A stretch of 64,000 nt of DNA from Hyphomicrobiales bacterium 4NK60-0047b (GTDB lineage: Bacteria; Pseudomonadota; Alphaproteobacteria; Rhizobiales; HXMU1428-3): positions 1 through 64,000 of the forward strand of contig BAABWY010000004.1 of the NCBI GenBank assembly GCA_040367435.1, read 5' to 3'. Below are positions 123 to 7,811 of this stretch, piece after piece (position 1 is the first letter of the stretch; every line of letters begins with the position of its first letter). The notes below the pieces were generated by a model that searched no databases, had not been told where the DNA came from, and saw nothing but the letters and a program-made list of their open reading frames with translations. The position numbers were made by a program, and so were the translations under genes.

Positions 123-1301
123 TTAACAATCAGATGAGTTGAATAAAGGGTGTGCCTGGTCATATTCCTTTCGTTTGGTATAAAACTCTCTGTAAGGTAA
201 TTGATCTGATCGTGAGGGCTCGAGAATGACATTGCCTTGCCTGCCTTCTCTGGCTTCATCTAAACGCCCATGATGGATGTTGTTTTGTATCTGGTGGGTT
301 GTAAAATTCTTGGTCGCCCGGATGATAATTTTTGCGTCAAATAAAACGCATCCTTTTTTTGTTTTGGGATGAACTCAAAATACTGGCTCTATGGTGTAGC
401 GGCCAATAATGTCATCAAGCTCATCCAAAATTTTAACGACATATTTTAAATTATCACTCATTCGTTCATAAAGTGAGATTCAGCTATTTTCTATGATGGT
501 TGAGAGCATGATATTAAAGCTCTTGTTGGGAGAGGCATAGGTATATTTCAAACCTAACAAAGTACGTAACCAGCCCCCTAAAAAAGAGTGATCTCAAATA
601 ATACGCTCATAATCAATTTGCCTCCAATTGCGAGCCAAGATTGATTTGGAAATCAATTTGTTCAGATGGACACAAATGGTTGCTTTTGTTCAATTGAGCT
701 CTCAGTCGTCTTTATTAAAATAGCTGGTATCTCAAAGGGGGGAGATGATCATATTCTCTTCGCCATCGAGGGATTTGATATGAAGTTTGGTTTTCGTCAA
801 TACCTGTATGGCCTCTCTAATTTGATCATATGAATAGCTTTTGCTCTTACGGCGTTTTTTACCGCGTTTTTTCAATTCTGTGTGGATGCGATAGAGAGTG
901 GTAGGGACCAGAAAGTTATCAGTTGATTTATTGTCTCCTCAACCATTGTAAAAATACCCACTATCAACAGCGAGCTTCATGATGATTTTTTCAATGACCA
1001 TTTCTCTGGTGCCTGGAAATAGAGCTTTGGTGCTACCATCCTTTCATTCAATAAATGCAGGCTCAAGAAGTAAGCGATATTCTGTTTTTTCATAACGGAA
1101 ATATCTTTTAATGGGAGCTGCAGTTCAGTCTTTATTACGTCTTATGATTTTAGCATTACCACGTCCTACCACAAAGCGAGGAATGCTTTCATAAAAGGCA
1201 AAGCCGTTCATGTAGTTAGGCGTTGAAACAATGCGGAATAAATCCAATTGTTTCGGTTGGTTTTTCAGCGTGTCATTAAGCTCAAATTTGTTTTTTTGCA
1301 T
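123..1301 (-). CDS. Plasmid-type replication initiator read with TGA as Trp
   Basis: The frame is open for 392 residues from ATG 1301 to TAA 123 only if TGA encodes tryptophan. Nine in-frame TGA codons lie at 1125, 1044, 939, 732, 702, 690, 594, 480 and 375 (lowest base of each); two TGG codons are also used and there is no internal TAA or TAG. The translation resembles proteobacterial plasmid replication proteins: N-terminal QLDLFRIVSTPNYMNG, FYESIPRF, a PGTREMVIEKIIMKLA segment, TLYRIHTELKKRG, SYSYDQIREAIQVL, and a C-terminal SFNIMLSTIIENSW stretch followed by SLYERMSDNLKYVV. Many TGA positions sit where Trp is structurally reasonable (PLWDTSYF, DDWELNW). It overlaps the preceding small gene by 26 bp and is the last gene of a parA-rhh-rep operon. 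With TGA as stop it would break into short fragments. The family call is inference from remembered motifs; the recoded frame is seen directly. Confidence 0.8.
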
Positions 1302-1542
1302 CTTGTTGTTGATTAAAATCTATAACGAGCTGACGAAGAACTTTAGAAACTGAGGTTCGTCCAATATGTGAGATGAAACACTCATATTCTGAAGGTTTTA
1401 TATGACCATTGATTTTGCGAGAGCACTTTTCTTCAAAAGAGATTCATTTAATTTGTGATGGTCTAGCTAAAACTGTCTGATCAAAATTAACTGATTGAGT
1501 TTCTGCAAATGAGATGTCTTTTGCAAATTTATTTTTAGTCAT
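1276..1542 (-). CDS. Small ribbon-helix-helix (ParB/CopG-like) protein read with TGA as Trp
   Basis: This 88-residue frame runs from ATG 1542 to TAA 1276 with two in-frame TGA codons, at 1444 and 1282. The C-terminal half (SEYECFISHIGRTSVSKVLR) has the look of a ribbon-helix-helix DNA-binding fold: a short strand, then two helices with an R-S/T-x-S turn. Its ATG overlaps the parA stop (ATGACTAA), and its end overlaps the rep start by 26 bp, so translation of the three genes is probably coupled. The position between parA and rep suggests a partition or copy-control partner that binds DNA. It could also be a simple operon repressor. No homologue is claimed by name. Confidence 0.65.
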
Positions 1543-2173
1543 GTGGTTTAAAATTATCAAGGTAAGTATGAAACTCTATGAGTTGTGGCATGATATAGCG
1601 CAGAGCATATCTGTCGGTTCCATTGAGCTCATAAAGTTCAAATGGTGTGAGGTTTTCATCGGCCATTCGAGCAATATATTTAGATGGATTGATGATAAAG
1701 ACGGGATGATTTGGAAAGTGCTCTTGTAATGTTTCTTTCAAATCTTTGGCCATAACTTTGGGTGTGTTGTTGATGAGTATCACAATATTAGGGTTGTAGC
1801 TTTCAAGGTTCTTAATGGTCTTGATGGCAGGGATTAAATCGCCTCTTGATTGATAGCGAATTGGTACAACGCAAAGGTCTGATAATTTAGCCGCTTGTGG
1901 CACGCGAGATTCCACCCAGCCTCAAAAATCGATGACATAGTTTTCTCATGAAGTTAAGTTGAGTGGTTCTCAAGGATGAATGGTAATGATCTGTCCTGGT
2001 TCGAACATGTTTTTATAGATTTCTTCAGTGCAGTTTTCGACATCATTGGTCAGCAACATGCGACCAGATTGCTTGGCATAAAGACAAGCATGAGAGCTTT
2101 TGCCTTGTCTTCAGATGATAGAGTAAAAGAATATATTCATGGAATGGAAGTTAAGGGCTATTACATTCATCAT
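1535..2173 (-). CDS. ParA-like partition ATPase read with TGA as Trp
   Basis: This 212-residue frame starts at ATG 2173 (or ATG 2170) and ends at TAA 1535. It holds four in-frame TGA codons (2111, 1970, 1946, 1922) and one TGG (1916). A Walker A-like loop WRQGKSSHA follows a hydrophobic strand. The ParA switch region appears as YVIDFWGWVESRVPQA, where both W residues of FWGW come from adjacent TGA and TGG codons. Later segments DLCVVPIRYQSRGDLIPAI and NIVILINNTPK match the C-terminal part of ParA/MinD-type NTPases. The segment visible under the standard code is only the last 126 residues from GTG 1915, and that would lack the P-loop. It heads a tight operon with the ribbon-helix-helix and rep genes, as in plasmid maintenance modules. 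Confidence 0.78.
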
Positions 2174-2221
2174 AGTGAAATAAAAAAGAAGTCAAAACTA
2201 TTTGCCCCAGTGGGGCAGTAA

Positions 2222-2312
2222 TTTTTTTTAGATTTAAAAATTTTAAAAATAATAAATTTTAGGAGGACCTAAATTTAGTGAAAATATAAATTTTATATAT
2301 TTACTTCATCGA
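2222..2312. promoter_or_regulatory. AT-rich spacer with inverted repeat upstream of recoded parA
   Basis: The gap between parA and the RES gene is almost pure A/T. It carries an inverted repeat at 2253-2277: TAAATTT-T-AGG, a 4-nt AGGA centre, then CCT-AAATTTA. As this lies just upstream of parA on the minus strand, it may be the operon promoter/operator, a partition site, or part of a replication origin. No iteron series is visible in this short stretch, so the role is open. Confidence 0.35.
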
Positions 2313-2927
2313 CTAGGTTTTTAAGGCAATTTCTTCTTCTTTTTTATTGACAAAATGTGTGAGTCTATCTTCTTCACAATACCAACGGAGTTGAAATCTA
2401 TGCTCAAGTGATGGCGAAATTTCAAGAATACTATCAATGAAAATAGGATAAGATATACCGCCATTATATCGCACTGATTTTGCTTTTAGTGAACAATGCT
2501 TATTATCTTTAGCTTGTTCAGCAAAAGTTTGACAAGCACTATAGTCATCTGGATGATGATAACATTTTTCATCGGGTACTTCTTTTTGATTAATAAATTT
2601 AGCTTTAATCTTATAAACTATTTTTGACGTTTTTCTGTATGTAACTTGATTTTCTTTTTCAAAGAATTCTTTACGGAAGTGATGAGCGACTTCATATATG
2701 GCTGTTATTGGATCTTTTGCTGCATATAACACTGACCAGTTACCATTTGTAAAGCGTGATGGAGCTTTAGGTAGCAATGAGTTCATAAAAGCAAATTTAA
2801 TGTCATCCATTACTATTTTTTTAATCAAAATTTGATTGTCAAATGCTGCTAATGTCTCATTAGGCCAACCATCTTTTGCGGTATAATTATTTAACCTATC
2901 ACCACAAACTCTATAAATTTCTTGCAT
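2313..2927 (-). CDS. RES-domain toxin-like protein
   Basis: A 204-residue protein with RES-family features: an N-terminal YRVCGDR, then RFTNGNWSVLYAAKDPITAI and EVAHH, then SVRYNGGISYP near the end. RES toxins bind and degrade NAD+ and are usually paired with an Xre/MbcA/ParS antitoxin. Its ATG overlaps the stop of the upstream gene (TAATG at 2925-2929), so it is translationally coupled as the last gene of a three-gene operon on the minus strand. All three Trp codons are TGG and the stop is TAG. The residue pattern supports RES; toxicity and NAD+ cleavage are family knowledge, not shown here. Confidence 0.75.
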   Translation of the reverse strand: MQEIYRVCGDRLNNYTAKDGWPNETLAAFDNQILIKKIVMDDIKFAFMNSLLPKAPSRFTNGNWSVLYAAKDPITAIYEVAHHFRKEFFEKENQVTYRKTSKIVYKIKAKFINQKEVPDEKCYHHPDDYSACQTFAEQAKDNKHCSLKAKSVRYNGGISYPIFIDSILEISPSLEHRFQLRWYCEEDRLTHFVNKKEEEIALKT

Positions 2928-3805
2928 TATCCAAGGATCCTATTTACTAATGCTGCAACAATGACGAGGTCATCATGCTTACCTGTTTCTAATAAATCCC
3001 ATGCGCATTTGCCATTTAGTTCTTGGCGTTTTGTATACATCCAATTTAATTGTTCCTCGAGATTATCTGGCCCCAGGCACGACATTAAACCTTCTTTGAT
3101 GTATCTTAGTGTCTCAATTCTATCTTTTAAATCTTCACCGTAAACATTATTACCCGTATTTCTTGCCTCTAGCCAATTTTTTGCGTCACTATCAACGTAT
3201 CCTAGTAGGGTTGGTAGCAGTGGAAAACCGTTTTCATGTCGAGAGATGTCACCATAAGATTTTTCAATGGCGCAAAAGTATTCTTCTAAGATTTTAGGCT
3301 TATGTATTGCGTTAAAATTGACCTTATATAAATTAGCGAATTTTTCAAAACTATCAATATTACCATGGTTATCTTTATGTATTTTGAATATCTTTTGACC
3401 ATTGCTTTCTAGTAAATTGATTGTCAAAGTAGCTTCTTCAATATCGTCGTATTCAGATAATGAGGCGCAAAATTCTATTTGATTATCTTCCCCATCATTA
3501 GTTATGCTAGCTATAGTTGCTGGACCAGCGCCCGCACCTGCGTAGGTTCTATGTCCGTGAATATCATTGGACACATTGTCCATTTTTGTATCAAAAGAAT
3601 AAAGTGACCTGTTTCCAATTCTTTTATATCTATCGATTACTAAATCTGGATCTCTGGTGATAAGGATATTAAATCCTTCATGTTTTAAAAAGCTTACATA
3701 AGCTTGTATAGATTCGTATATATCTTCTAGAAATGTAGCTGTTGGTGAAATTAGACCGTTTTCAATATAAACCAATTGATCGTTATTCGTATTTGTTAAA
3801 TTCAT
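2927..3805 (-). CDS. Protein with Xre/MbcA/ParS-like C-terminus, putative antitoxin of the RES gene
   Basis: A 292-residue protein between a GHKL ATPase gene and a RES toxin gene, overlapping both (23 bp and 1 bp). The last 35 residues, including CAWDLLETGKHDDLV and VAALVNRILG, resemble the toxin-binding domain (DUF2384) of Xre/MbcA/ParS antitoxins, which pair with RES toxins. The first 200 residues are not recognised. They include an HRTYAGAGAGP segment and mixed alpha/beta content, and have no clear helix-turn-helix. If the C-terminus is a real antitoxin domain, this is an unusually large antitoxin whose N-terminal part may take input from the kinase-like neighbour. Domain assignment is tentative. 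Confidence 0.5.
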   Translation of the reverse strand: MNLTNTNNDQLVYIENGLISPTATFLEDIYESIQAYVSFLKHEGFNILITRDPDLVIDRYKRIGNRSLYSFDTKMDNVSNDIHGHRTYAGAGAGPATIASITNDGEDNQIEFCASLSEYDDIEEATLTINLLESNGQKIFKIHKDNHGNIDSFEKFANLYKVNFNAIHKPKILEEYFCAIEKSYGDISRHENGFPLLPTLLGYVDSDAKNWLEARNTGNNVYGEDLKDRIETLRYIKEGLMSCLGPDNLEEQLNWMYTKRQELNGKCAWDLLETGKHDDLVIVAALVNRILG

Positions 3806-5099
3806 CGCTATCCTCAGATATTAAAACGATAGGTAGTTCCAACATTATTTTAAATATTTTTGTATGTTTTTTACTGCTATGTTCTTCATAAGTTGCGTTT
3901 TTTCTGATTCCATATGCATCGCATATATCTTTTGCCATACCTAGTCCTAAACCCTCACCTTCAATATTTTCTCTCGATGCAAAATCCCCTCTCTTCTCAT
4001 ATTTCCAGATATCATTTAAATTGTCTTCACGGTCTTTAGGTATATCATTACTAATTGTTAATATATAACTTTTTCTATATTTGCCACTTTTTTCAATCTT
4101 TGTTTGAACTACTCCCCCTGGAATAGAATATTTTACCGTATTGGAGTAAAACTGTGTAAGTAGCATGTCTAGATCATCAGGATGAAAATTAATTTTCATA
4201 TTATTTGGTATGTTTATTTCGCCTGAAGTAAGTTCATTAGGAGATTTTAGAACATTTATTGTTTTGCTAATAATATCGACAACAGCTTTTTTTAAATATA
4301 TAGCTTCTTTGTTTCTAAATCTGTCTGAAACTCGTTCTTTGAACGAAGAACTTTTATATGATTGGCGAAGTACTCTTACGGAGGAAGAGATATCATTAGC
4401 TCTTCTAGAAACTCTTTCATAGTTATTTTCATCCGATTTAAGTTTTGTTATATCTTGAACTATTTTATCAAATTTAGATGAAATAATCCTAGTGTGATAC
4501 ATTATTTCATGTCGGTCTTTTCTGCGTTCTAAGCGGCTTGCTCTCAGAGTTTCATCAATGGCTTCAATGGTAGCTCTAATAATTCCAGCAATACCAAATA
4601 AAATATCATTAGGTAAGTTTCTAGGTGCTTTATCGAAATACAGAGATAGTATTCTTACAGGCTGTTCAAAACGGTCTAGTATGGGGATAATGGCGATGTA
4701 TTGTATGCCTAAGTTGGGTAGTTTTCTTGTATAATCCTTTTGTAACCAATTCTTATCAAATGGTCTCTCTCCGAACTTACCTCTTATTATTCTATTTCTA
4801 TTAAGGGCAACACTCGCTACAACATTATCTTTTTTGGTATCTAAGAACATATTGTTTATTTTTCCAGCAAGGTCACTTCTGTTATAGTACCCAATTAGCA
4901 CAAATTTTTTTGTTGAAAGCGAAGTTTTATTGTTACACCAAAGTGTGGCTGAGGTCGCGCCAGTTAGTCCGCAGATATTTTTCAAATATATCTCAGGGTG
5001 ATCGCAGTTTAGCATTATTGTTTCAGATAGTTTAAATAAACTACTGTAAGTGTAGTAATGTTTATTATTTTTTTTTTGCATATAAGATGTGCTTTTCAT
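3783..5099 (-). CDS. GAF-GHKL ATPase sensor protein
   Basis: A 438-residue cytosolic protein with no membrane segment. Residues about 20-190 look like a GAF sensory domain. Residues about 200-260 form a helical, possibly coiled region, and residues 270-425 are a GHKL ATPase: N-box FYSNTVKYS, a degenerate G1 region (LTISNDIP), and a clear G2 box (GEGLGLGMAKDICDAYG). A canonical H-box (HE-x-R-x-P-L) is not evident; the nearest candidate is HEIMYHTRIISSKF. It may therefore be a histidine kinase with an unusual H-box, or an ATPase that works without phosphotransfer. It is the first gene of the operon and overlaps the next by 23 bp, which suggests it senses a signal and controls the RES/antitoxin-like pair. 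Confidence 0.7.
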   Translation of the reverse strand: MKSTSYMQKKNNKHYYTYSSLFKLSETIMLNCDHPEIYLKNICGLTGATSATLWCNNKTSLSTKKFVLIGYYNRSDLAGKINNMFLDTKKDNVVASVALNRNRIIRGKFGERPFDKNWLQKDYTRKLPNLGIQYIAIIPILDRFEQPVRILSLYFDKAPRNLPNDILFGIAGIIRATIEAIDETLRASRLERRKDRHEIMYHTRIISSKFDKIVQDITKLKSDENNYERVSRRANDISSSVRVLRQSYKSSSFKERVSDRFRNKEAIYLKKAVVDIISKTINVLKSPNELTSGEINIPNNMKINFHPDDLDMLLTQFYSNTVKYSIPGGVVQTKIEKSGKYRKSYILTISNDIPKDREDNLNDIWKYEKRGDFASRENIEGEGLGLGMAKDICDAYGIRKNATYEEHSSKKHTKIFKIMLELPIVLISEDSDEFNKYE

Positions 5100-5189: not shown

Positions 5190-5287
5190 GCTTATTTTTG
5201 TTGTTTGCACCAGGGATCGTGACCCGAATGGGCCGAGACAAAAAAGCTGATAAGCGTTTTGGCTTGGTGAAGCGTTTAGCGAAATAG
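5190..5287 (+). pseudogene. Short 3' coding remnant of unknown gene
   Basis: This stretch is richer in G/C than its surroundings and reads on the plus strand as a possible C-terminal tail (TRMGRDKKADKRFGLVKRLAK, about 30 codons) ending in TAG at 5285-5287, with no start or upstream body. It looks like the tail left by deletion of a larger gene on the element. A hairpin CTTGACC-GTCTTAA-GGTCAAG follows at 5296-5316. Origin is not recognised. Confidence 0.25.
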
Positions 5288-5331
5288 AGCTCGGTCTTGA
5301 CCGTCTTAAGGTCAAGAGGTGCCAGATAAGA

Positions 5332-5366
5332 AAACCGTCAGTTTGCCCAGATCTCACTGACGGTTT
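5332..5366 (-). terminator. Rho-independent terminator downstream of alpA-like gene
   Basis: Perfect 11-bp arms AAACCGTCAGT and ACTGACGGTTT enclose a 13-nt loop, with T-rich tracts on both sides. It lies 8 bp after the stop of the minus-strand AlpA/DUF433 gene and could act in both directions. Confidence 0.75.
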
Positions 5367-5373
5367 TTAAATT

Positions 5374-5811
5374 TTAAGGAGAACAAACGACTTCTTCACT
5401 TTTGATGTCACTTAAATATGAAAAACAAGCCGCAACATCTGCATGTGTCAATGAGCAATGTATTTCAATCATTTCAGTAACATTTTTACCTTTTAGAAAA
5501 AGTTCTAAAACAGATAGAACTGGAATCTGAGCCTCTTTGACATAAGGCATACCATTAAACTTCCTGGGACAAGAAATGATCCTTTCATTATGGGAAATCT
5601 TAATTTCAGGAAGTTGATATTTAATGGGATGTGCCAAAGCTTCACAACTATCTATCCAGGTATCAATTTCTTCTTCAATCCAAGCAACTCGGTTTTTACC
5701 AATTTGTCGTCTTGGAGGAAATTGACCTAATTTTTCTAATCGTAAAATATGTTGAGAAGAATAGGGAATTCTCTCTAAAAGTTCTTTTTTGTCGATTAAT
5801 TTTTTACGCAT
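5374..5811 (-). CDS. AlpA-like regulator fused to DUF433
   Basis: 145 residues from ATG 5811. An upstream GTG at 5841 would add ten residues but overlaps the palindrome, so the ATG is preferred. Residues 1-45 are an AlpA-type winged helix-turn-helix (IPYSSQHILRLEKLGQFPPR, then W..EEIDTWIDS), the kind that controls excision and integrase expression in integrative elements. Residues about 65-140 resemble DUF433, found in VapB-like antitoxins (ISCPRKFNGMPYVKEAQIPV, then LELFLKGKNVTEM). It reads in the same direction as the integrase, some 250 bp downstream of it, and carries its own palindromic operator. The likely role is excisionase/repressor of the element; a toxin-neutralising role for DUF433 is possible. 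Confidence 0.65.
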   Translation of the reverse strand: MRKKLIDKKELLERIPYSSQHILRLEKLGQFPPRRQIGKNRVAWIEEEIDTWIDSCEALAHPIKYQLPEIKISHNERIISCPRKFNGMPYVKEAQIPVLSVLELFLKGKNVTEMIEIHCSLTHADVAACFSYLSDIKSEEVVCSP

Positions 5812-5832
5812 AACAACGCCTTTGTTTGTTTC

Positions 5833-5850
5833 ATATGACACATGTCATAT
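5833..5850. promoter_or_regulatory. Palindromic operator upstream of alpA-like gene
   Basis: ATATGACA-CA-TGTCATAT has perfect 8-bp arms about 20 bp upstream of the chosen ATG. This placement is typical of an autoregulatory operator. Confidence 0.6.
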
Positions 5851-6056
5851 ATATGGTTAAAATTAACCCACAGGATGATGTATCTTGTTATTCTTGTTAT
5901 GTTTTTTCTTCTTCTTAAGAAAAATCATGTGTCAAATTGAAACAATTATCAAGTGCAATCATAGGTTGTGTTGTACTATGTTGTAATCCATTAGTCCAAA
6001 AAATCGAAATAAATGATGTTTTCAGTGTTCTTTTTTATAAGTGATTACACTTGATG

Positions 6057-7289
6057 CTAGAGATGCTCGTCATTCAGTGTAAGTTTTGAATCTTTTTCTC
6101 CATCGCTGATTAAGCAAAGAAGATGAGATTCCCAGGTTTCTAAGGCATTTCTCATTTCTGGGAGATAACCAAAACGATTATACACACCAGCCACCCCTCC
6201 AAAAGTGCCTGACTTATGATTTAAAATACGTTCGACCACATGGGGAGGAATTTGTTTTTTGGCCATACCGGTTGCAACGGTTCGCCGCAAATCATGTATG
6301 CGCCAATCAAAGACTTGGCTTATTTCATCCAGTCTTGATTTAAATTTGCTGATCCCTGAAACGGGGCGATCCGCATTATTTTTTTGAGCTGGAAATAATA
6401 GTTCCTTATGCAGATAAGGTATGCTCTCAATGAGGGCTACAGTAGAATTTGTTAATGGAACAATATGGGCTCTGCCAGATTTATTTCTTGTTGCCTCAAG
6501 GTTCCAAAGTTTTTCCCCTAAATCAATATCCTGCCATCTCATTGTTGTTACTTCGCCAATACGTTGACCAGTAAGTATGAGCAATTGGGTGATAACACCA
6601 AAAGGGTAGGCCTCTTGATCAGCGGTTCTCCAAACAGCTTGAAGTTCTTCATCAGTTAGAACGCGGTCTCTACTTATATCTTTTGTGGGACGTTTCATGC
6701 CAGTACAGGGTGATTTTTCAATAAGGCCGCGCTCGATTGCCCAATTAAAAACTCGTCTTATCATTGCAAAGCAGTGATTAGCTCCACTTGGTGCTCCTCT
6801 TTCAATAATGGCATCTAGTATTATATTAACGTCAGCTCTTGTAATTTGGTCAATTCTCTTATTTCTCCAGGGAGGGAGGAAGTCCCTTTTTAAAATTCGC
6901 TCTGTCTCTCTCCAGGTTTTATTTTGGCGCTTTGCGTATTTTTCAATAAATTCATCAACCAATTCGGGGAATAGGAGAGTATCGGATAAGTTATTGGTAT
7001 GACGTTTTTCTGAAGCAGGGTCTCCACCAGCATTGACTTTAACTAGTGCTTCATGTGCTTTTGCACGAGCTGTAGCAAGGGATAAGATGGGGTAGCGTCC
7101 AAGCGTAAATCTTCTAGATTTACCTTCGAAGCGATAGAGCAAAACAAAAGAAGTTGTGCCCTTGGAAGTTATACGCACTCCAAAACCTGGTAGTTTATTA
7201 TCCCATATTTCGCTTTGTCCCTTTACAGGTGGTTTTAGTTTTTTTATTTTTAAATCTGTTAGTGTGTCTTTAGTCATGGTCTTTCTCAT
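6057..7289 (-). CDS. Tyrosine recombinase / phage-type integrase
   Basis: A 410-residue integrase. It has an N-terminal DUF4102-type arm-binding domain (LKPPVKGQSEIWDNKLPGFG, FVLLYRFEGKSRRFTLGRYP), a core-binding region near residues 100-200, and a catalytic domain with TGQRIGEV (Arg), an H-x-L-R-R box at HDLRRTVATG, and the C-terminal Tyr in GVYNRFG. Two starts are possible, ATG 7289 or ATG 7277. It sits 140 bp from a tRNA-Lys 3' fragment, as expected for an island that uses a tRNA 3' end as its attachment site. The stop is TAG. Confidence 0.92.
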   Translation of the reverse strand: MRKTMTKDTLTDLKIKKLKPPVKGQSEIWDNKLPGFGVRITSKGTTSFVLLYRFEGKSRRFTLGRYPILSLATARAKAHEALVKVNAGGDPASEKRHTNNLSDTLLFPELVDEFIEKYAKRQNKTWRETERILKRDFLPPWRNKRIDQITRADVNIILDAIIERGAPSGANHCFAMIRRVFNWAIERGLIEKSPCTGMKRPTKDISRDRVLTDEELQAVWRTADQEAYPFGVITQLLILTGQRIGEVTTMRWQDIDLGEKLWNLEATRNKSGRAHIVPLTNSTVALIESIPYLHKELLFPAQKNNADRPVSGISKFKSRLDEISQVFDWRIHDLRRTVATGMAKKQIPPHVVERILNHKSGTFGGVAGVYNRFGYLPEMRNALETWESHLLCLISDGEKDSKLTLNDEHL

Positions 7290-7428
7290 AGGTAAAAAAT
7301 AGGTAGCAAAATGCTGGAATTTCAGCGTTCAACTAAGTTACCTTATGAGATGGGTGAGGTGGGTATAATAAAGTGAGAACAGTGAGTTAGGTCGCGTCAT
7401 GTTCCGCTAGGGTTGCTTACCTAATGAA

Positions 7429-7474
7429 ACTTTTAATCAGTAGGTCGAAGGTTCGAATCCTTCAGGGCTCACCA
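7429..7474 (+). repeat. attR-type 3' fragment of tRNA-Lys(TTT)
   Basis: These 46 bases read as the 3' part of tRNA-Lys: anticodon loop CTTTTAA, variable loop, T-arm GAAGG-TTCGAAT-CCTTC, acceptor strand AGGGCTC and ACCA. The bases to the left do not form a D-arm or 5' acceptor strand, so it is not a whole tRNA. It marks the right junction of the integrated element; the chromosome resumes at about 7475. The intact tRNA gene should lie at the other end, outside this window. Confidence 0.8.
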
Positions 7475-7811
7475 CTTTTCCATAAGATGCACCTCTTACC
7501 TAATGCTTAGTTTTCTTTTGGAAACAAGATGTGGAGATTATTTATCGGGGGCTTAGTTTTTCTTAATACTGGTTTGAATTGTTTGGGGTTGTATTAACCT
7601 TGATACTTTTTAATTCATATCAGTTGCCAAGAACTAAACTTCAATTCTTTCATTTGCAATTGTAAATGCCATGCTTTTTCAAAGGTGTTGAAACAAAGAT
7701 TTTCATTTTTTTCTCTCATCTTTGTTAAAGGATGTATCTGGCGGCCACCTTTCAATACTTAGTCAAGCTTCCTATCTGTAATTTACCCGCTGAATACTTT
7801 TCGTTGTTTTT
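7475..7811. other. Intergenic region right of the attachment site
   Basis: Between the tRNA fragment and the end of the SDR gene there is no convincing reading frame, RNA or repeat. The stretch is AT-rich and probably holds the transcription end of the catabolic operon. Confidence 0.5.

Follow-up and report, generated by a model that had tools for sequence, protein, structure and literature searches.

What TGA stands for in a plasmid-type replication operon that lies beside standard-code genes, and where such an operon can be expressed, are the questions raised by the left end of the window. The window, a stretch of 64,000 nt, is the start of contig C4 of Hyphomicrobiales bacterium 4NK60-0047b (genome G000 below; 3.47 Mb, 99.67% complete). 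Three frames, for a ParA-type ATPase, a small RHH-like protein and Rep, are present on its minus strand (Table 1). Counted from ATG, they comprise 681 codons with 15 TGA and 3 TGG, and no TAA or TAG precedes the gene ends. As the module genes were read up to the first TAA or TAG, the internal absence of these triplets is by construction; the evidence lies in the frames reaching the full length of their homologues, and the genes' own stop codons were dropped as evidence. Among the stop triplets in six frames of the stretch 123-2140, 121 of 239 are TGA, and 15 out of 15 TGA would occur by chance with a probability of about 4e-5. Eleven of the 39 mechanically called window ORFs of at least 190 aa end in TGA, which points to the standard code around the module. 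A parA-rhh-rep operon of plasmid type with TGA as a sense codon, otherwise undamaged and adjoined by standard-code genes, had been described in the earlier note, and this description holds, including its counts of TGA, TGG and terminal TAA.

Table 1. Features of the module and of the surrounding element in the window
Feature	Position	Strand	Remarks
Rep	123..1301	-	392 aa, 9 in-frame TGA, stop TAA; distant relative of IncA/C-type plasmid replication initiator
Small RHH-like protein	1276..1542	-	88 aa, 2 in-frame TGA, stop TAA; start overlaps parA stop (ATGACTAA)
ParA-type ATPase	1535..2140	-	201 aa, 4 in-frame TGA, one at P-loop glycine; stop TAA
Upstream region common to the host's copies	2141..2217	-	inverted repeat TGCCCCACTGGGGCA at 2203-2217, also a terminator-like match
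RES-domain protein, toxin-like, cargo	2313..2927	-	standard code
Cargo protein, likely RES partner	2927..3805	-	standard code; weak Xre/MbcA/ParS C-terminal match, 18.6 bits (cut-off 24.5)
Cargo protein, HATPase_c-like C-terminus	3783..5099	-	standard code; 24.7 bits, below cut-off 26.4
Non-coding block 3' of alpA	5203..5366	-	conserved in three host copies (also L004 2674-2860, L005 382-560)
Integrase-AlpA end of element	5205..7485	.	83% identical to contig C14; homology stops near 7485
AlpA/DUF433 regulator	5374..5841	-	standard code
Tyrosine integrase	6057..7289	-	410 aa, 25 Gly codons, none TGA

The host genome has three copies of the module, on contigs C4, C14 (93%) and C13 (75%). A fourth rep-like sequence in the host (L007, G000:C16, about 1431-2392, plus strand) is distant and decayed, with 24-33% identity and broken frames, and a 79-base sequence (96%) lies in opposite orientation at the outer ends of C14 and C13 (L004 29-107 and L005 15063-15141). 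In 397 genomes of the order, a Rep profile matched six, four with TGA (the host, G018, G025 and G159) and two, G244 and G302, with distant, TGA-free homologues. The ParA profile matched 18 of the same 397, with TGA in the host, G018, G159 and G390 and without TGA in G158 (Chthonobacter albigriseus, Hyphomicrobiales by sequence); the other 13 matches are weaker and look like general ParA proteins. Two of the five genomes in the family of G018 matched, both already known, and two of the 103 in the family of G390, one of them with a further intact module (G836). Two more families of this alphaproteobacterial order have relatives of the module, and a third has a decayed fragment. No match to either profile was obtained in the seven other genomes of the host's genus, the ParA profile at E 1e-8 found the host alone in 385 genomes of the class, and the Rep profile found no relatives in genome_contigs. 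A ParA scan of genome_contigs returned seven loci, two with TGA in alphaproteobacterial MAGs and five in standard code; none is in a code-25 genome, and the scan is insensitive in that one of its two patterns demands GGN glycines. Viral contigs yielded no relatives of Rep, ParA or a pilin-like gene described below.

Six modules with 17 genes and 3,561 codons have 59 TGA codons that are read through, a count that leaves out the frameshifted parA of C13 and the truncated or decayed copies of G390 and G025. Rep has nine in-frame TGA in C4, eight in C14, ten in C13 (two of which lie beyond the end of the homologues and are hence uncertain), six in G159 and four in G836. Rep of G159 meets a TAA about 33 codons before the end of the window's Rep, a TAA that the profile search counts inside its match, and the contig of G018 ends 85 codons into Rep. 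A TGA at codon 10 or codon 20 is found in every ParA with a readable start (C4, C14, C13, G018, G159, G390 and G836).

No Pfam or NCBIfam model matched any of the window's three module proteins above cut-off, and the RHH label of the small protein, to which no family model matched, is that of the earlier note. When searched against plasmid records with TGA open and entered as W, Rep matched 1121 of 72,556 records over up to 98% of its length, including IncC plasmid pR55, and the identity to plasmid replication proteins was 25-28% among the best 20 of the 1121 matches. ParA matched eight plasmid records, with Smac51 as the best (31.7%). Its family membership is supported by the P-loop alignment, and ParA of G159 matches weakly, below the cut-offs. 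The distant RepA homology, together with direct repeats after rep in G836, G159 and C13, is a trait of IncA/C-type replicons; no such repeats were found in the 140 bases left of the window's copy. In the region upstream of parA, promoter-like boxes TTGACT/TATGAT with a 15-nt spacer were recognized by eye and are absent from the list of the promoter scan.

Judging by the alignments, UGA in the module appears to stand for glycine and not for tryptophan. The P-loop of standard-code ParA homologues from Bathymodiolus gill symbionts and a Lutibacter MAG is SAIGRQGKTTHAIGYAQ, and that of the window is SII-TGA-RQGKSSHACLYAKQ. This column holds TGA in C4, C14, C13, G390 and G836, and glycine in each of the six remaining sequences that have a residue there; TGA positions agree with glycine in the DFGG columns as well. 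Over ParA and Rep, glycine stands in another copy at 22 of the 31 TGA columns and tryptophan at none. Codon inference from the alignments scores TGA as Gly with 69.9, followed by Ser with 12.2. The same inference called 54 of 61 sense codons right, and as TGG itself is among the seven miscalled, it is by itself weak on tryptophan. Between Rep of C4 and of C13 there are 12 codon pairs with TGA: five are TGA-TGA, four pair TGA with GGC or GGT, each of these two mutational steps apart, three pair it with Gln, Asp or Ala, and none with TGG. In the 14 such pairs between C4 and G159, TGA stands opposite TGA once, Gly five times and other residues eight times. Taken alone, the distant Rep homologues score best for Ser, with Gly in mid-table; other sequences have D, E, K, Q or P at several TGA columns, and the wider Rep alignment has one Trp at a TGA column, in one distant homologue. 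For Rep, both rankings place tryptophan at the bottom of the 20 amino acids; for ParA, with all sequences used, it comes 17th.

The earlier note had read TGA as tryptophan (code 4), a reading that the open frames allow and that some contexts suggest by eye, and it had itself named homologues with other residues at the TGA columns as evidence to the contrary. Such residues, at many columns glycine, are what the homologues hold. With TGA at the P-loop and DFGG glycines and no tryptophan at any of the 31 columns, code 4 was rejected, and its probability is close to nil.

With TGA counted as Gly, dN/dS of Rep between C4 and C14 was 0.063 (53 synonymous and 14 non-synonymous changes) and between C4 and C13 0.072, with saturated dS (2.3); between C4 and C14, it was 0.078 for ParA and 0.121 for the integrase. 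By these ratios, Rep is under strong purifying selection as a protein. Rep is open over essentially the whole homologous length, with no frameshift, in C4, C14, C13, G159 (where it ends about 33 codons early) and G836, and so is ParA in C4, C14, G018, G159 and G836. Decayed copies occur too: parA of C13 is frameshifted, and the copies of G390 and G025 are truncated. The GC3 of ParA and Rep in C4 and C14 is 0.39-0.43 at a host GC of about 0.40 (0.19 in the small RHH-like gene of C4), that of the G018 and G159 modules 0.53-0.58 at genome GC of about 0.50 and about 0.47, and that of the G836 and G390 modules 0.74-0.85 at genome GC of 0.56 to 0.64. Module GC3 thus tracks the GC of each host, as far as GC3 can be set against overall GC, which suggests long residence in these lineages. 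A recent arrival, which the earlier note had offered beside a suppressor, is not supported, as the composition follows each host and the copies diverged under purifying selection.

The same results bear on the view that the modules are dead passengers derived from a code-25 organism. The decayed parA of C13, the decayed copies of G390 and G025 and the lack of a decoder found in the host would agree with it; five Rep and five ParA genes open over essentially full homologous length without a frameshift, dN/dS of 0.06-0.08 and a base composition that follows each host do not. Disfavoured by selection and composition, relic status is quite unlikely.

The gene order in C4 and C14 is integrase, AlpA/DUF433 regulator, cargo and parA-rhh-rep, and C13 has the same order from AlpA onward, where its contig begins. 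In G159, cargo stands between integrase and AlpA, and the module is followed by the repeats, a TOPRIM protein, a protein that we take to be MobC-like, a relaxase and a T4SS coupling protein; the copy in the window runs into the end of its contig. The integrases of C4 and C14 have a Pfam match, that of G159 is similar, and a different one, by eye, lies beside a tRNA-Leu gene in G018. An assembly chimera was rejected, as the same gene set recurs elsewhere: integrase, AlpA and module are together in C14, G159 and G018 (in the last with the other integrase and rep cut), and AlpA, cargo and module in C13. The border of the element in the window is likely near 7485, where homology to C14 ends. By its gene content, the module appears to be the replicon of an integrative element of mobilizable type. 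TGA codons are absent from the G159 genes for the relaxase, the coupling protein and the TOPRIM protein. Four of 25 non-module genes checked end in TGA, all four in G159, as expected under standard code. With an integrase and other genes free of TGA and a module that contains it, a single element appears to combine two codes.

The cargo of C13 (L005 649-2502 and 2517-11326) includes two trypsin-like proteins, a long WD40 protein, a MORN-repeat protein and a Memo/PGA_cap protein. In G159, JAB, E2-like (by eye) and ThiF/E1-like genes of a ubiquitin-like pathway stand in a row (L111 4346-6734, plus strand), which may represent phage defence. The non-coding block 3' of alpA is possibly a structured RNA. 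It has no Rfam match, and nhmmer found it in the three host copies alone among the loci compared. As a decoder of UGA it was rejected. It is not tRNA-like, and by its z values it seems structured in C4 (-2.9), less so in C14 (-1.8) and not in C13 (-0.15).

A second frame with TGA was identified on the contig of the G159 module (L111, G159:C45, 1193-3316, plus strand). It has 708 codons with 14 TGA and no TAA or TAG, and is open solely with TGA as sense. The type IV pilin N-terminal methylation motif was recognized in it (Pfam N_methyl, E 1.2e-5), and such pilin-like proteins are typical of Gracilibacteria. Since the contig ends 1.2 kb away, the place of this frame within the element is uncertain. 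A homologue search that included viral contigs found no sequence for a comparison of its TGA columns.

The earlier note had proposed a search of the host genome for a tRNA-Trp with UCA anticodon; no UCA tRNA was found. The host has 36 tRNA hits, 35 of them named by ARAGORN and none UCA, with 62 of 212 first-look candidates unscored, so one could be missed. None of the 46 tRNA hits in G836 is UCA. In a first pattern scan of G000, G018, G159, G390 and G025, all four hits were inspected and no UCA tRNA was recognized. A second scan of the same five genomes gave none among 36 of 72 hits inspected, two of which are tRNA-Glu and the rest no ARAGORN gene, and there was none among 10 of 12 inspected pattern hits of G000 alone. 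A tRNA-like sequence of the host (L067 1001-1067, minus strand; G000:C6:121856-121922) reached 53.5 bits, with a weak acceptor stem, the anticodon TAG by eye and no ARAGORN call. On the element stretches examined, the tRNA genes are tRNA-Leu by the G018 integrase, a more distant tRNA-Ser and, at the far end of the G159 contig, tRNA-Arg; there is no UCA tRNA. A scan of viral contigs gave nine pattern hits, and ARAGORN calls a UCA tRNA in four (L118, L119, L120 and L125). Two of these were compared with phage records, and no annotated tRNA-Gly was among the 12 of 371 and 12 of 387 matches listed; that of L118 resembles tRNA-Trp of Agrobacterium phage Atu_ph07.

If the element or the host had an unusual UGA-decoding glycine tRNA that the tools miss, the module would always be translated, in line with the strong selection on Rep and the three copies in one genome. 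The lack of a UCA tRNA on the element stretches, the ordinary UCA-less tRNA sets of G000 and G836 and the host ORFs that end in TGA make such a tRNA unlikely.

The reading that we prefer, with a probability of about 0.5, is an element whose replicon is written with UGA as glycine and the rest in standard code (code 11), with ParA and Rep silent in the present host and made only where UGA is glycine, most likely in a second host of code 25. In the alphaproteobacterial host, the element would be integrated in the chromosome and copied along with it. There, with UGA as a stop and no UCA tRNA found, ParA and Rep could not be produced. Only in a cell that decodes UGA as glycine would both proteins be made, and the element would then replicate like a plasmid from iterons; the likeliest such cell would be a host with genetic code 25 of the Absconditabacteria/Gracilibacteria type. 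Genes used solely in this host would be free to drift from GGN to TGA, and genes needed in standard-code hosts would stay free of TGA. As module GC3 follows the alphaproteobacterial hosts, the module would have evolved there for long, and the two-host idea needs frequent passages.

In the main alternative, the element stays in standard-code hosts and a helper plasmid, integrative element or phage brings tRNA-Gly(UCA), with TGA as a lock. The TGA at codon 10 or 20 of each ParA with a readable start, the GC3 of the modules and the distant relationship of Rep to the IncA/C initiator would suit such gating. Support from published systems is that SGI1, a mobilizable island, is reported to be quiescent without its helper and switched on by IncA/C plasmids (PMC5704250), and that a phage-borne tRNA-Gly(TCA) is reported (PMC13059738). 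No such helper or tRNA was found, and the viral UCA tRNAs compared had no tRNA-Gly among the matches listed; a helper is a tentative and rather doubtful explanation. For the broader statement that this is a mobile element in two codes, whose replicon (and, in one relative, pilin-like gene) would function only with a helper tRNA or in a second host with code 25, which would make the genetic code itself a host switch, the odds are slightly better than even.

UGA as glycine that is confined to a replicon in standard-code Alphaproteobacteria would mean either cross-code gene flow or a translational lock on plasmid replication, and either outcome would allow a direct test of whether genetic codes act as barriers to gene transfer. 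Since standard annotation splits such genes at each TGA, similar modules are probably overlooked. In titles and openings of abstracts (few subscription journals and no preprints among them), no UGA=Gly genes are mentioned in Alphaproteobacteria, on plasmids or on integrative elements, and UGA=Gly is described there for a single class of bacteria, tiny epibionts, and for the phages of this class, with no others found. UGA=Gly is reported as the code of class JAEDAM01 (PMC13092985), and its reported places are Absconditabacteria and Gracilibacteria (PMC13092985, PMC10746230, PMC13059738).

As in code 25 of this class, UGA is apparently read as glycine beside GGN in the module; the whole genome is concerned there, whereas here it is a few genes in standard-code alphaproteobacterial genomes, with the tRNA not found. 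Phages with stop-codon recoding, which have a suppressor tRNA and recoded late genes, likewise combine standard and recoded genes in one mobile genome. However, the element here is not a phage, UGA would be Gly and not Trp or Gln, the replication genes are the recoded ones, and no suppressor tRNA was found on the element. With IncA/C-type RepA plasmids with iterons, the module shares distant homology of the initiator (about 25% identity over up to 98%) and repeats after rep in C13, G159 and G836, but its Rep has 4-10 in-frame TGA, and the module is integrated in the chromosome. SGI1 with its IncA/C helper has in common with the element an integrase, a plasmid-type initiator and toxin-antitoxin-like cargo, as well as a relaxase and coupling protein in G159. 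Gating of SGI1 is transcriptional, whereas the initiator here would, as we propose, be blocked by its UGA codons.
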